Positions 18,248-26,997 of a DNA stretch of 28,337 bases are shown here, piece after piece. The number at the start of each line of letters is the position of its first letter. Position 1 is the stretch's first letter. Made by a program: the position numbers and the translations under genes. Under the pieces are notes generated by a model. That model ran no database searches. It was not told the origin of the DNA and saw only the letters and a program-made list of their open reading frames with translations. Source of the stretch: a virus; IMG/VR virus record IMGVR_UViG_3300048586_000936, positions 1 through 28,337 of that record; one strand, written 5' to 3'.

Positions 18248-19741
18248 CTATCCCTCGAAGATAATCAGCGGGCCGCCGCGATAGGCACCCATCCAGGCCA
18301 AAACGACCGCGTCGCCATAGTCTGGCGAGCGACCGATGCGCTTCTTGATCTCGTCTTTACTTTCCAGCCCGATCTTCGCGCCCAGGATTTTGTAGCGCGG
18401 TGCGCACAAGTCGACACGCAACTGGCGGCTAGGCGGCAGTGCGATGTTCTCACCGCTCGCCGGGTCCAGCGCCTCGCGCAGCTTCCAGTAGCTTTCGGCA
18501 CGCAGGTTAGCGAATTCGTACTTCCCGCTCTTATCCTTGCGCGTCGATTTGCTGCTGTTGTTCACCGGGATCGTGCGCTCATGCAGGGGTTGCAGGTGGT
18601 CGACCGCGGATGCGCCGTAGCCGATACTGTCAATGTAGACCGGCGCATCGGCCTCACCCAGAGCGTTCAACACGTAGTGCGCGGTAATCGCACCGTTGGA
18701 CGTTTCCGCGCCTGGATAGACCTTCAACTCATCGAACCATGTGCCATAGAGCGGAGCCAGCGTTGTGCTGTCGGCACCGCCGCGCGCCACGTCGACACCC
18801 AGCGCCCGCAGCGCCAGATCGGGCTTGCTCTCCGGCGTCCAACGGGCCTGCGCGGCCTTGACCCAGGCCGTGGGGATGCACTGCCATGCGTCGTCACTGT
18901 GCGACGCGGTGAAGTCACCATTGAGCATCTGCGACCGCAGCGGCTCAGGCAGCGACTGAAGGACGGCCCGGTATTCGTCGCCATAGTACGGGTTGTCGCT
19001 CAGCTTCGCCGGAATGAAGGTCCGGCTGCGGGGCTTGAGCATCTCGCCATTGTGTTCGTACGGGCTGGCGTCAGGGACTTCGATATCCTTGTCGTCAATC
19101 GTGACGAACCAACGCAGCTCACCCGGTTGCGCCGGATTCGGGTGTGTCGGATCCAGCCACGGGGCGAAGAACGCAATCACCCACTCGCCATCAGCGTCCG
19201 TGGGTGGGTTGCCGGTGAGGACGATGCGGCAGCGCTGACCGGGGATGGTGGACCGGTTCCAGGCGGTAGAAAATCGCACCTGGCTCTCGGTGAATTCCGT
19301 CACCTCGTCAAACACGTAGAGGTCACGCGGGCGACCCTGCTGGTCTTTCTTGTCCTTCTCATACTGCATTGCCGCGAATTCGATCATGCGCCCGTCGTTC
19401 AGACGCCAGATGTGCAGGCTCTCGTTGTAGCTGTCCTTGGCGTGGCTGTCAGACTGGGCATTGAAGATTTCGCGACTGCGCTCGATCAGTGAACGCATAC
19501 GCGGGAATTCGCGCCGGAAGATGACGCTGCGCTGGTGCGCCGTACCTGACAGCCCTAGCGCCAGGTCAGTCTTACCACCACCCGCCGCGCCACCGTAGAA
19601 CAGGATGTCGGCTTCGCTGTAGTAGGCTTGCGTCTGCGGGCCGGGAAGCGGCGTCCAGATCGCAGGGTTGCTGCTGTTTAGACTCTCCTCGAAGACCTCA
19701 TCAACGAATGCATCAATCGGGTCGGCTGCTGGCTCGCTCAT
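18248..19741 (-). CDS. terL: Terminase large subunit
   Basis: The protein has 497 residues and the complete set of motor and nuclease motifs. Walker A is GGAAGGGKT (50-58), Walker B LYVFDE (141-146) and the coupling motif LTGNPP (175-180). The RNase-H-like nuclease has acidic residues in GVDVARGG (D317), YIDSIGYG (D371) and SPDYGDAVV (D477). It packages the DNA into the prohead using ATP and cuts concatemers. It overlaps the small subunit gene by 29 bases and is followed at once by the portal gene. Confidence 0.95.
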   Translation of the reverse strand: MSEPAADPIDAFVDEVFEESLNSSNPAIWTPLPGPQTQAYYSEADILFYGGAAGGGKTDLALGLSGTAHQRSVIFRREFPRMRSLIERSREIFNAQSDSHAKDSYNESLHIWRLNDGRMIEFAAMQYEKDKKDQQGRPRDLYVFDEVTEFTESQVRFSTAWNRSTIPGQRCRIVLTGNPPTDADGEWVIAFFAPWLDPTHPNPAQPGELRWFVTIDDKDIEVPDASPYEHNGEMLKPRSRTFIPAKLSDNPYYGDEYRAVLQSLPEPLRSQMLNGDFTASHSDDAWQCIPTAWVKAAQARWTPESKPDLALRALGVDVARGGADSTTLAPLYGTWFDELKVYPGAETSNGAITAHYVLNALGEADAPVYIDSIGYGASAVDHLQPLHERTIPVNNSSKSTRKDKSGKYEFANLRAESYWKLREALDPASGENIALPPSRQLRVDLCAPRYKILGAKIGLESKDEIKKRIGRSPDYGDAVVLAWMGAYRGGPLIIFEG

Positions 19742-20552
19742 TCACGTTCTGCTCTGCCTTCTGCTGAATCACCCGGCGCGCTTTTTCGATCATCCGCTCG
19801 ATGGTCTGCACAGGGTTCATGCCAGCCATCTCCAGCACCTGCACGAGCTGCACCACCAGGTCGACATCAAGCGGGACTTCAACGCCCTTGTCCCACAACC
19901 CGTGATGCAACCCCATATCGCGGTTCGGCCCGCGCTTGTCCCAGAGTTCGAGGACCACGCTCCCATCGTTCTGCACCTTGTACTTTTTGATGAGGTGCAG
20001 CTTCCCGCGCTCCTGGGCTTTCAACAAGTCGATATAAGGCCACACGCCGGGGATCGTCAGGAAGTCCGCCATGTTGGCGTTTGCCATGTCGGAGACGTTC
20101 GCCAGCACCTGCTCGCGCGTCAGTGCCGCCGCGTCCAGCCGCCGCCGAATTTCCGCCGCCACCTTAGCATTCTTTAACAGTCGCGATGCCTGCACATGCG
20201 CTGACGCTGGCGAATAACCCACCCGGATCGCCGCCACACGCCCATTCCAGTTCTCTTCGAAATAGGCGTCAATGAAGGCCAGATGCTGTGGGTCCAGGTC
20301 CTCATCGGGCGCACCCACGACCACCGTTGGCGCGCGCTCCGGTTTCGAAACAACGATTTCGGTTTTCGGTTTCGGTGTTTCGATTTTCGATTCTGAATCC
20401 GAACCGCTTTTCGAAAGCCAGCCGTGCAGCGTACTGGTGCTGATGCGCTTCCCCAGTAGCGCCTCAACTTCATCCAGCGCTGCCGCCTTCAGGCCGCCAT
20501 GCCGCCGGACGATGTCGACCGCTGACGCCTTCTGCTCTGGACTGTACGCCAC
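19713..20552 (-). CDS. terS: Terminase small subunit
   Basis: I choose the GTG at 20552 (GAGG six bases upstream) over a GTG four codons earlier that overlaps it; the product has 279 residues. The N-terminal ~55 residues form an HTH-like region (YSPEQKASAVDIVRRHGGLK, then STSTLHGWLSKSG), joined by a Ser/Lys/Glu linker to the Terminase_2-type core: PQHLAFIDAYFEENWNGRVA, then GYSPASAHVQASRLLKN and EIRRRL. The C-terminal part is a long extension that includes a Met-rich helix. It recognises the packaging site and recruits the large subunit. A terminator lies directly upstream. Confidence 0.88.
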   Translation of the reverse strand: MAYSPEQKASAVDIVRRHGGLKAAALDEVEALLGKRISTSTLHGWLSKSGSDSESKIETPKPKTEIVVSKPERAPTVVVGAPDEDLDPQHLAFIDAYFEENWNGRVAAIRVGYSPASAHVQASRLLKNAKVAAEIRRRLDAAALTREQVLANVSDMANANMADFLTIPGVWPYIDLLKAQERGKLHLIKKYKVQNDGSVVLELWDKRGPNRDMGLHHGLWDKGVEVPLDVDLVVQLVQVLEMAGMNPVQTIERMIEKARRVIQQKAEQNVNERASSRPD

Positions 20553-20568
20553 CGCACACCTCACGAAT

Positions 20569-20592: not shown

Positions 20593-20626
20593 CGTTTGGC
20601 GAACAATAACATTATTCGCAAGAACT

Positions 20627-21199
20627 CTATGCTAATTTCATCATAGCACTTTTGTTCGCTTTTATTAGAGGCGAAATGAGAAAAGATATGTTGTCTTCCA
20701 GCGGCACATTCACCAGGACCCAGCGCGGGGTATCCTGGCTATCCCCCCACCCAGGCCACCAGCGCGCCCGGATGTCGTGTGCCGCGAAATACTCCATTGC
20801 CTGGGATGCGGACTTTAGAAGCTGGCTCACGCGCCCCTGGGTGATCCCCATGTTTGTTGCAATGACCGTCTGAATGCCCCGGTGGATCGATTTGTGCAGG
20901 CGTTCCAGATGCACCTCTCGGAGAACCTCGTAATGACCGCTCTCCAGCCGTTCATAAAAGAGCCTCGCACCTAGCGCGACCCGGTCGGTCTGTAACCGCT
21001 CCATGTGCGCCAGGGCCACCGTCCGGTCAGCCTCTCGATATTCCGCCGCGCGCTGACGAATGATCTCGATCTCCCAGAGCATCGCTTCATACTCACGCGC
21101 GGTCAGGCAGGCATAGCCGAATTTGCGGATGCGCCCCGCCATCGCCTTATCGCGCGCCATTGCCCTTTCTGCTGCACTCAGCAGTCCGTCATTGCCCAT
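20627..21199 (-). CDS. HTH protein with sigma-region-4-like motif
   Basis: I choose the ATG at 21199 (190 residues); an upstream start in the same frame would overlap a membrane protein gene throughout. Two long charged helices (AREYEAMLWEIEIIRQRAAE, then a region of Arg and Glu) precede an HTH near residues 109-131, TVIATNMGITQGRVSQLLKS, close to the sigma-70 region 4.2 pattern. It is the last gene before the packaging operon, so a role in switching on late genes is plausible, but that is inferred. A perfect palindrome lies nine bases before its ATG. Confidence 0.65.
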   Translation of the reverse strand: MGNDGLLSAAERAMARDKAMAGRIRKFGYACLTAREYEAMLWEIEIIRQRAAEYREADRTVALAHMERLQTDRVALGARLFYERLESGHYEVLREVHLERLHKSIHRGIQTVIATNMGITQGRVSQLLKSASQAMEYFAAHDIRARWWPGWGDSQDTPRWVLVNVPLEDNISFLISPLIKANKSAMMKLA

Positions 21200-21377
21200 C
21201 GCGCCCCCACTGTCCACGGTGGACAGTCCGAAGCCGCCGCTGCTGGAGCCAGTCGACCAGCAGCAGCGTCCCCAGGCACAGCAGCCCGCTCGCGCCAACA
21301 CCGTCACGCCATGCGACCGGCCCGAACGTCAGCCCCAACCACATCAGTCCGAGGATGAGGACAACGCGCTTAAGCAT
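21189..21377 (-). CDS. Small membrane protein (62 aa)
   Basis: The ATG at 21377 has AGAGG seven bases upstream and overlaps the preceding gene by 8. Two hydrophobic segments (about residues 4-20 and 28-42) are followed by an Arg/Gln-rich tail. The final codons also encode the ACTGTCCAC palindrome. The function is unknown. Confidence 0.6.
   Translation of the reverse strand: MLKRVVLILGLMWLGLTFGPVAWRDGVGASGLLCLGTLLLVDWLQQRRLRTVHRGQWGRDGQ
21209..21227. repeat. Perfect 19-bp palindrome upstream of the HTH gene
   Basis: ACTGTCCAC, central G, GTGGACAGT. It matches the palindrome at 9530-9547 except for the central base, and lies nine bases before the ATG at 21199, inside the 3' end of the small membrane protein gene. 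Confidence 0.7.
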
Positions 21378-24751: not shown

Positions 24752-25840
24752 CTAGGCTCCCTGTGTGGCTAATCGGTCTTTGGCCCGCTGGCGGGCCACA
24801 CCTTTGCGTCCGGTTAAGGCCCAGGACCGGGCGCGCTCATCGGCGGGTTTGCTCGGCATGAAATCCGGCGGCGGCGCATCCGGCAGGCGGGCGAATTCGT
24901 CGGCAATGAGCTGGTCAAGCAGCGAGTCGCTGCGTTGGGGCGGTGAGGCGCGCGGCGGCGCGGCGGCTGCGGTAGGCGCTGGCGTGTGTTCCTGGGCGTA
25001 ACGCCACGCGGGCAGGTCCTGCGGCAGGAACCGGAATGCGTAATCGACCTTGCCCACGCCGATTTTGCTCGCGACCAGACCAGCGACGTGCGTTGGGGTG
25101 TAGCCGTCGCGCGCCAATTTCTCGGCGACGTCCAGATAAGCCGCGTCCACCGGTGGGCGCGCGCCCTCTGGCAGCGCGGACATGAACGCCCGGACGAGCG
25201 GGTGCTGCCGCGCCTGGTCCGCCTTTTCGCCGTAGCCTGGGCGCTGGCCTGTAACGCCAAAGCCGTTCGCGATGTGAAATGGCAAACCGCTGCCCTCGCG
25301 CGTCGCGCGGTGTGAGAGTGTGTTTTTGTCTTTTGTTTTGGTTTTGGTCTTGAATCGGAGAATCGACGATTTAAAGACAAGACTCTGACGCGCGTGTACG
25401 TGTGTACGCGTTGCCTGCGCCATCTCTGCATTTTTGCGGACATGGTCGCTCACCATGTCCGCATTTTTGCCCACATGGTCAATATTGCGGGGATGGTTCC
25501 CCGAAGCCATCTCTGCATTTTTGCGGGGATGGCGCGCCATCTCGTCAATACTGCGGACATGGTTGTTGTCCATCTCCGCATTTTTGCGGACATGGAACGC
25601 GCCAGCCTTATAGCGCCCGTCCGCCGTCTTTTCGCGCACGAATTCGACATAGCCCGCTGTTGCCAGCTCCTGAAGCGTTCGTCGTGCCTCGCGGTCGCTG
25701 CACCCCTGCGCGCGCAGATCGTCTGGCGTCAGGGCCGCCACGCCGCAGGCAATCGCCAGCACAATCACGCCCCGCGCCACCGGCGACAGGCGAGCATCTA
25801 ATGAGGCACGTTGCAATAATGAGCAGTCGGTCACAATCAT
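24752..25840 (-). CDS. Replication initiator (lambda O-like role) with intragenic iterons
   Basis: The protein has 362 residues; ATG at 25840, or GTG at 25834 with better ribosome-site spacing. An N-terminal winged-helix-like domain (~15-75, LTPDDLRAQGCSDREARRTL) should bind DNA. Residues ~83-141 contain a repeated peptide (HVRKNAEM and variants), encoded by DNA repeats. A Lys/Thr-rich stretch (KTKTKTKDK) is encoded by an AT-rich tract. The C-terminal part (LVRAFMSALPEGARPPVDAA and further) probably contacts the loader. Position before a DnaC-like gene and internal origin-like DNA match lambda O in layout, though I see no clear sequence similarity to O. Confidence 0.75.
   Translation of the reverse strand: MIVTDCSLLQRASLDARLSPVARGVIVLAIACGVAALTPDDLRAQGCSDREARRTLQELATAGYVEFVREKTADGRYKAGAFHVRKNAEMDNNHVRSIDEMARHPRKNAEMASGNHPRNIDHVGKNADMVSDHVRKNAEMAQATRTHVHARQSLVFKSSILRFKTKTKTKDKNTLSHRATREGSGLPFHIANGFGVTGQRPGYGEKADQARQHPLVRAFMSALPEGARPPVDAAYLDVAEKLARDGYTPTHVAGLVASKIGVGKVDYAFRFLPQDLPAWRYAQEHTPAPTAAAAPPRASPPQRSDSLLDQLIADEFARLPDAPPPDFMPSKPADERARSWALTGRKGVARQRAKDRLATQGA
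25319..25380. other. AT-rich, T-rich strand tract next to the iterons (possible unwinding element)
   Basis: A stretch such as TGTTTTTGTCTTTTGTTTTG on the plus strand is strikingly AT-rich in GC-rich surroundings and strongly strand-biased. It lies about 40 bases from the nearest iteron, in the same order as iterons and unwinding region in lambda ori. Confidence 0.6.
25420..25595. repeat. Six iteron-like repeats inside the initiator gene
   Basis: Six related 18-bp units start at 25428, 25461, 25479, 25515, 25545 and 25578. Units 1 and 6 are identical (GCATTTTTGCGGACATGG); the others vary at a few positions. Spacings are 33, 18, 36, 30 and 33, all multiples of three, so the gene stays in frame. 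With flanks, the longer units form imperfect inverted repeats: arms CCATCTCCGCA and TGCGGACATGG around TTTT. Such symmetrical units suit dimeric initiator binding. Confidence 0.8.
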
Positions 25841-25898: not shown

Positions 25899-26381
25899 CT
25901 AGAAGGAGTCGTCGTCGCCCCAGTTATCACCTTCGAAGTCGTCATCGTCATCGAAGTCGTCTTCGTCCTCTTCGTCGTCATCGAAGTCGTCTTCGTCCTC
26001 TTCGTCGTCATCGAAGTCGTCTTCGTCCTCTTCGTCGAAGTCCTCTTCGTCGTCCGGTTCGCCCGCGTCGCCGTCGACAAGGTCGCTGCCGTCACCGTCA
26101 GGGTAGAACGCTGCATAGTCGATGATGTCTTGCGAACGCTCTGGCGCAGGCATACCCAGGCGCTCGCGCCAGAGGCTGGCCTGTTCTTCGTCCAGCGTGT
26201 TGACGGTGCCAGCGAGGCGGCGAATCAGCGCTTCGCTCACTTCGGCGTCGGCCTGCTCGCGAACAGCAGTGGCGCTCTCCCCGCGCCCCACCTCATGACT
26301 GACTTCGACACCGCAGCGGACGCTCTGGTAAGGCGCGGGCTGAATCACGACTTCATGGTTGATGGTGATGTGGTGCAGCAT
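25899..26381 (-). CDS. Protein with long acidic tail, possible SSB-like accessory
   Basis: The protein has 160 residues from the ATG at 26381 (GAGGG six bases upstream). The N-terminal ~55 residues are strand-then-helix (HHITINHEVVIQPAPYQSVR, GVEVSHEV). From about residue 96 onward it is almost entirely Asp/Glu, with a repeated DEEDEDDFDD-like unit and the tip WGDDDSF. Acidic C-terminal tips with a terminal Phe recall bacterial SSB and T7 gp2.5, which recruit replication partners, but no OB-fold is recognised. Position between the putative annealing protein and the initiator supports a DNA-metabolism role. Confidence 0.65.
   Translation of the reverse strand: MLHHITINHEVVIQPAPYQSVRCGVEVSHEVGRGESATAVREQADAEVSEALIRRLAGTVNTLDEEQASLWRERLGMPAPERSQDIIDYAAFYPDGDGSDLVDGDAGEPDDEEDFDEEDEDDFDDDEEDEDDFDDDEEDEDDFDDDDDFEGDNWGDDDSF
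25951..26037. repeat. Tandem 30-bp repeat, 2.9 copies, in the acidic tail
   Basis: Units at 25951-25980 and 25981-26010 are identical, and a 27-base partial third follows. Each unit encodes ten acidic residues with one Phe. The number of copies may vary between isolates through slippage. Confidence 0.85.
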
Positions 26382-26430: not shown

Positions 26431-26997
26431 CTAGGCAGGTTGTTCGATAGCGATCCAGCCCGGATAAGCGGCGGTGATCGCCCGCAGCGCCTTATCGCTG
26501 CTGGTGTAGGTGGTCAGTGGCTTCGATAGAATCTTTTCGACCTGGCGGATCGTGAGCGGTGCGCCGGTCTCTTTTTTTGCGCGGGTGAGCAGCGCTTGGA
26601 CAGCATCCGGGTTGGTCGACCAGTGCGGGCGTTGGGCCAGCGTCGGCCCAGCCGCCGCCGGGGCCGCGCTGGCGAGGTCGGGGAGCAGGTAGCCCGCGTG
26701 GCCCAACGCCCGCCCAATCGCCGCCGTTTCAGCCTTCTCGGCCTCACGGCCTGTCCAGACGGCCCGCTCATCCGACTTCGGAACGCCCGCGTGGGCAGTC
26801 GCCAGCAGCGAGCCGGTGCTGTCATAAATGGACGCCCGGAACATCAACGGGCGGCCCGGTTCCTCGCAGCGCTGCGTCTGAATTGCGCCGCGCGGGTGGT
26901 CCGAACGGAACCACTGAATGCGGTGTTTGACTTCCAGGTACGGCTTGCCGTGCAGCGTGATGACGTGTCGCCGGGGATCGAACTTTTGTGCAGTCAT
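26431..26997 (-). CDS. Possible single-strand annealing protein (Rad52/ERF-like pattern)
   Basis: The protein has 188 residues from the ATG at 26997 (AGGA upstream). The N-terminus KFDPRRHVITLHGKPYLEVK and following strands lead to MFRASIYDSTGSLLATAHAG, then EAEKAETAAIGRALGHAGY (85-103). Two strands followed by a helix with K-A-E-x-x-A-I-G-R-A-L-x-x-A-G-Y is an arrangement shared with Rad52/ERF-type annealing proteins and with an uncharacterised phage family. A Pro/Ala linker separates a small C-terminal helical part (~125-188). Adjacent genes for an acidic-tail protein and replication proteins fit. The annealing role is an inference. Confidence 0.55.
   Translation of the reverse strand: MTAQKFDPRRHVITLHGKPYLEVKHRIQWFRSDHPRGAIQTQRCEEPGRPLMFRASIYDSTGSLLATAHAGVPKSDERAVWTGREAEKAETAAIGRALGHAGYLLPDLASAAPAAAGPTLAQRPHWSTNPDAVQALLTRAKKETGAPLTIRQVEKILSKPLTTYTSSDKALRAITAAYPGWIAIEQPA

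Follow-up and report, generated by a model that had tools for sequence, protein, structure and literature searches.

Can a stretch of DNA in this phage encode part of a replication initiator and, at the same time, serve as the site on which that initiator acts? An earlier note on the sequence had proposed that a lambda-type replication origin is embedded in the candidate initiator gene. The window (the whole stretch analyzed here) is a virus record of 28,337 bases; the main genes that were identified in it are encoded on the minus strand.

Organization of the locus

Within the P0001 gene, on the minus strand, six iterons are followed by an AT-rich tract and then by the downstream loader gene (Table 1). 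The elements of a lambda-type arrangement are present: the repeats lie inside the initiator coding sequence (six units at 25420–25595 within 24752–25840), an adjacent AT-rich, strand-biased region is found in the same gene, and a helicase loader is encoded next. The order described in the earlier note, namely an initiator with internal dyad iterons, a strand-biased AT-rich tract and a DnaC-like loader, is thereby confirmed, the loader by its match to phrog_50 (E 5e-33).

Table 1. Features of the candidate origin region (window coordinates).
Feature	Position	Strand	Basis
P0001, candidate replication initiator, 362 aa	24752-25840	minus	ORF; winged-helix N-terminus; adjoins loader gene
Winged-helix DNA-binding domain, P0001 residues 1-90 modelled	25571-25840	minus	AlphaFold2, single sequence
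Iteron 1, CCATGTCCGCAAAAATGCGGAGATGG	25570-25595	minus	10/13 dyad pairs
Iteron 2, CCATGTCCGCAGTATTGACGAGATGG	25537-25562	minus	9/13 dyad pairs
Iteron 3, CCATCCCCGCAAAAATGCAGAGATGG	25507-25532	minus	9/13 dyad pairs
Iteron 4, CCATCCCCGCAATATTGACCATGTGG	25471-25496	minus	7/13 dyad pairs, least symmetric; shares 8 bp with iteron 5
Iteron 5, CCATGTGGGCAAAAATGCGGACATGG	25453-25478	minus	9/13 dyad pairs
Iteron 6, CCATGTCCGCAAAAATGCAGAGATGG	25420-25445	minus	9/13 dyad pairs
AT-rich tract, A-rich on coding strand, candidate DNA unwinding element	about 25318-25390	minus	stability and strand bias
P0001 C-terminal helical region, putative loader/helicase contact	24965-25285	minus	low-confidence AlphaFold2 model
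P0002, DnaC-like AAA+ helicase loader, 332 aa	23750-24748	minus	phrog_50, E 5e-33

The A-rich tract, AAGACCAAAACCAAAACAAAAGACAAAAACACAC, is located about 30–100 bp downstream of the last iteron. Of all 60-bp stretches in the window, only one has a duplex less stable than 25323–25382, and the strongest A/T strand bias of the whole window falls at 25292–25351. Thus, the strongly AT-rich, strand-biased tract that had been noted after the repeats is real by both measures. The AT-rich stretch with the lowest stability in the window lies at 20605–20690, at the start of the ORF 20627–21307 and its junction with the ORF 19713–20564, and is possibly a regulatory region. GC skew shows no clear switch on this 28-kb fragment, whose main genes are one-directional and which ends 2.5 kb past the P0001 gene, and the skew at third codon positions is inconsistent in sign within the window. 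GC skew is therefore uninformative here, speaking neither for nor against an origin.

The iteron array

The array consists of six related 26-bp imperfect palindromes on the minus strand, located mid-gene in P0001 with the consensus CCATGTCCGCAAAAATGCGGAGATGG. Each unit follows the same plan, with a CCAT-half, an AAAA/ATAT centre and a half-ATGG. Reading down the coding strand, the units start at 25595, 25562, 25532, 25496, 25478 and 25445. Since the start-to-start spacings (33, 30, 36, 18 and 33 bp) are all multiples of three, all six iterons are in one codon phase. The six related, in-frame inverted-repeat units that had been reported are therefore present, and their reported length of 18 bp gives way to 26 bp, which fits better. 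With a profile built on the unit, the six iterons score 31.6–42.8 on the minus strand and 18.1–28.5 on the plus strand; no comparable site is found elsewhere in the window, where the next best score is 10.1. The array also contains a duplicated two-unit block (62 nt at 81% identity, 117 nt apart). As the iterons are copies of one another, the six units do not amount to six independent observations. Tandem Repeats Finder misses the array because the spacing varies.

An iteron scan of viral contigs recovered ten single, isolated palindromes, none of which is an origin array; eight lie in genes for Rha-like antirepressors, and the other two (in L092 and L095) are also isolated copies. The palindrome in the Rha-like genes, which belong to several prophages (L086–L091, L093 and L094), is near-perfect and of the CATCTCCGCAAAATTGCGGAGATG type. 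It encodes FH(L/A)RNFAEM, close to the iteron of the window, and its symmetry is striking. Conservation of the peptide may explain these palindromes.

Constraint on the DNA beyond the encoded peptide

The iterons encode HVRKNAEM-like peptide units, which raises the possibility that the repeats serve the protein. Across the six units, 53 of the 78 possible dyad pairs are formed, compared to 36.6 ± 2.8 in synonymous recodings of the repeat region (random codons at phage codon usage, 20,000 runs), of which the maximum was 49 and none reached 53. When the region's own codons were shuffled among identical residues, a stricter control given that codon choice is already set by the repeats, the observed value was reached in 3 of 5,000 shuffles. 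A gene-wide score that counts all direct or inverted 8-mer matches over the whole gene, independent of the chosen unit positions, was 142 for the P0001 gene and averaged 63.5 in codon shuffles (0/500, z 6.1); in a second run, the score of the gene was unreached in 200 codon shuffles (z 6.3). The repeats also fix less-preferred codons, with CAT used for 6/6 histidines against a phage usage of 14 CAT and 36 CAC.

When the units are compared with one another, replacement sites have changed as often as silent sites (pN 0.245, pS 0.213). What is being preserved is therefore not the peptide, whose units show no purifying selection when measured against silent sites. Thus, the dyad symmetry of the iterons exceeds what the encoded peptide requires and is conserved at the DNA level, with one weak unit (7/13 pairs). 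The silent-site test separates DNA-level from peptide-level repeats. Together with a survey of analogous loci, it took the place of a comparison of related phages, because P0001 has no detectable homologue.

Survey of loci with DnaC-like loaders

The survey drew on 80 DnaC-like loader loci from viral contigs, collected through the loader alignment, and eight from named phage records; 82 loci were kept after those that had no usable upstream gene were dropped. A gene passed the silent-site test when none of 100 shuffles reached its observed repeat score. The loader's immediate upstream neighbour passed at 52 of the 82 loci, the loader itself at 4 (paired Wilcoxon, p about 1e-12). The count of 52 overstates the number of independent cases, as many loci are related; the 55 with the strongest clusters form 24 sequence groups. 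Among the controls, lambda O gave a z of 6.3, lambda P 0.8, cII −1.0 and the loader of the window −0.6. Within the window, the P0001 gene reached 6.3 and other genes about −0.3 to 3.8. The repeat clusters are located near mid-gene, at a median of 0.47 of gene length. A crude metric gave no statistical support for an A-rich tract regularly downstream of the repeats across the surveyed loci. These results show that the origin-in-initiator arrangement is common among loci with DnaC-like loaders.

The best-scoring relative of the loader in viral contigs is encoded by L104 (27% identity, 3e-17), whose initiator gene carries CCGCAcggaTGCGG dyads followed by an A-rich stretch. The L104 initiator is intermediate and connects several PHROG families of replication initiators and O-like proteins. 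Initiators of the phiPSA1 type (phiPSA1 is L103) carry TGTCCGCA half-sites. In several of these (L103 at 1925–1990, L130, L142 and L176), inverted TGTCCGCA pairs are directly followed by a AGAGAAGAGAAG purine tract. These initiators share a CCGCA core, which may reflect common binding or chance.

The initiator protein

Residues 1–90 of P0001, folded alone, are predicted to form a winged helix with the order H-H-H-H-E-E (AlphaFold2, single sequence; pLDDT 79). As expected for a winged-helix initiator, this model of an N-terminal DNA-binding domain matches a phage initiator and helix-turn-helix proteins. Among viral structures, the model comes closest to a RepA-like replication initiator of Gordonia phage VanLee (E 4.4e-4, TM 0.63 by query), with phage helix-turn-helix proteins next in rank. 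The neighbours among solved structures are general winged-helix proteins. Residues 186–292 were modelled with low confidence as four to five helices (AlphaFold2, single sequence; pLDDT 66).

No curated family matched P0001 above threshold, and among the PHROGs it hit replication-initiator and DnaD-like families only weakly. The absence of clear sequence similarity to lambda O, remarked on in the earlier note, holds: BLASTP between the two proteins gave noise-level scores, and no O-like PHROG or Pfam family matched at E 0.1. By sequence, P0001 is outside the lambda O protein family. No relatives of P0001 were detected by sequence in viral contigs, genome contigs, phages or plasmids. Weak matches in 400 Chloroflexota genomes were attributed to chance, four being in stop-broken frames and two in intact frames outside replication modules, and an apparent match in L023 was judged spurious. 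By sequence, no relative of P0001 or lambda O was found among solved structures, and a search for relatives with the neighbouring gene at 26431–26997 found nothing.

The loader and the likely host

The assignment of P0002 as a DnaC-like AAA+ loader agrees with the invariant GxxGxGKT columns in the loader alignment (A1). P0002 also matches NCBIfam PRK08116 at 7.6e-25, below the curated cut-off. Its PHROG matches are DnaC-like only, with none that would relate it to lambda P rather than DnaC.

The host comparison covered three phyla, those of a Chloroflexi MAG, of Cupriavidus and of the cyanobacteria. P0002 has matches at E 1e-10 in 95 of 400 genomes of the Chloroflexi phylum (best 7e-23, identity up to 34%). 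At 1e-14, matches are found in more than 40 Chloroflexota genomes and in none of the 299 genomes of the Cupriavidus phylum or the 292 of the cyanobacterial phylum. Two Chloroflexi-phylum genomes encode terminases 49–51% identical to that of the window. Since both the loader matches and the terminase relatives point there, the phage likely has a Chloroflexota host, as judged from sequence. Within reach, the terminase relatives, including the two in Chloroflexota genomes, share no replication module with the window. Genomes of the Chloroflexi phylum (L205, L208 and L216) contain a cluster of dnaB, DnaD-like and DnaC-like genes. Several encode a protein of roughly 500 aa with two separate matches to P0002, which suggests a double-ATPase relative.

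Neighbouring genes

Two further minus-strand genes were noted beside P0001. The first (25899–26381) encodes a 160-aa protein for which no family match was found. It has a long Asp/Glu tail ending in DNWGDDDSF, like the acidic tip of single-strand binding proteins, and this tail derives from an exact 30-bp tandem repeat (25945–26037, 3.1 copies, 100% match). The second (26431–26997) encodes a 188-aa protein that matches phrog_11717, of unknown function (1e-12); its EKAETAAIGRALGHAGYL motif is, we presume, reminiscent of Rad52-like annealing proteins.

Proposed function and alternative explanations

The layout, the DNA-level constraint on the repeats and the winged-helix N-terminus of P0001 support the lambda-type origin inside the initiator gene that had been proposed. 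We consider it highly likely that this region is the theta-type replication origin of the phage, located inside its own initiator gene; the same DNA very probably has a dual role, encoding part of the initiator and providing its landing site. By analogy with lambda O and SPP1 gp38, the winged-helix domain of P0001 would bind the six 26-bp iterons in its own gene, probably as one dimer per palindrome, and the assembled complex would strain and open the A-rich tract that lies beyond iteron 6. The adjacent DnaC-like loader may then be recruited by the C-terminal part of P0001 and would load the DnaB helicase of the host onto the strand thus opened. Binding, dimerization, opening, loader contact and origin firing at this locus are all inferred by such analogy.

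Other functions for the array can be envisaged. The palindromes could be operators, with P0001 a winged-helix regulator of its own operon and replication starting elsewhere. Palindromic sites suit dimeric repressors, and the fold neighbours include MarR-, ArsR- and Fur-type winged-helix regulators; however, six sites in a row, 245–420 bp inside a coding sequence, are unusual for an operator, a tract of low stability adjoins them, a helicase loader gene follows, and it is a replication initiator that the domain matches best among viral structures. We regard this explanation as improbable, while origin binding and autoregulation are compatible with each other. The repeats could instead serve the peptide, as a functional HVRKNAEM-like linker, with the DNA repeats a by-product of recent internal duplication. 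The in-frame units, their spacing in multiples of three and the visible duplication of the two-unit block would all agree with this. The dyads, however, are unneeded for the peptide and far exceed those of synonymous recodings, and per site the units differ by replacements as often as by silent changes, which makes such a role very improbable. A slighter chance still is that an extrachromosomal prophage uses the array as a partition or incompatibility (parS-like) site, or as a nucleoprotein site of some other kind, rather than as the origin itself. Clustered repeats also mark centromere-like sites, and some RepA-type phages have parS repeats beside repA (PMC7157519), but no ParA/ParB-like gene is present among the window proteins scanned, which represent part of the ORFs, and an origin accounts better for the AT-rich tract and the loader.

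If the array is the origin, its history can also be read in two ways. P0001 could be the founder of an initiator family of Chloroflexota phages that arrived at the lambda-type layout separately from O-type initiators, in which case the layout was found repeatedly and not inherited; we think this unlikely. An independent rise is possible and has no support over distant common descent. It is not favoured because L104-like initiators connect the initiator and O-like PHROG families, and P0001 itself is too diverged to tell the two histories apart.

The analysis predicts the origin, the initiator and the loader of a phage that belongs to a little-studied group, probably one infecting Chloroflexota. 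To our knowledge, few replication origins are likely known for Chloroflexota phages. The contrast between initiator genes (52/82) and loaders (4/82) in the silent-site test provides a simple means of origin prediction across uncultivated phages. An origin within the initiator gene couples the binding site to the protein that binds it, which may have helped the module to move between phages as one piece.

Comparison with known systems

The arrangement is already known from phage lambda, and the P0001 locus is a new, sequence-divergent member. In lambda, ori lies inside O, where inverted repeats bind O dimers next to a 40-bp AT-rich region (PMC5043065). Both loci have dyad iterons with an A-rich centre mid-initiator, a downstream tract that is A-rich on the coding strand, and a helicase loader as the next gene, and the silent-site repeat excess is equal (z 6.3 in both). 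However, lambda has four iterons of 18–19 bp spaced 20–24 bp, compared to six 26-bp units spaced 18–36 bp here, and the half-site sequences are unlike. The loader here is a DnaC-like AAA+ protein, whereas that of lambda is P, and the initiators have no sequence similarity.

As the loader is DnaC-like and not a P homologue, the locus is modelled just as closely by SPP1 gp38/oriL with gp39, or by other phages that have a DnaC-like loader. In SPP1, oriL is located inside gene 38 and contains repeats and an AT-rich unwinding element, with gp39 as the loader (PMC6316719). In both systems the initiator gene itself contains known or predicted initiator-binding repeats together with an AT-rich unwinding element, and the helicase loader is a separate protein. 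SPP1, a Bacillus phage, differs in its direct repeats, as described, in its second origin oriR and in having its own helicase gp40; its initiator was compared to P0001 by PHROG scans only.

Phages phiPSA1 and PVP-XSN (a Vibrio phage, L099) and L104 likewise encode an initiator upstream of a DnaC-like loader, and belong to the survey class in which 52 of 82 loci have in-gene DNA repeats in excess of what coding requires. The initiators of other phages that were tested belong to recognized PHROG families, unlike P0001. The RepA-like initiator of VanLee shares the winged-helix fold with P0001, a likeness of one domain at the level of fold.
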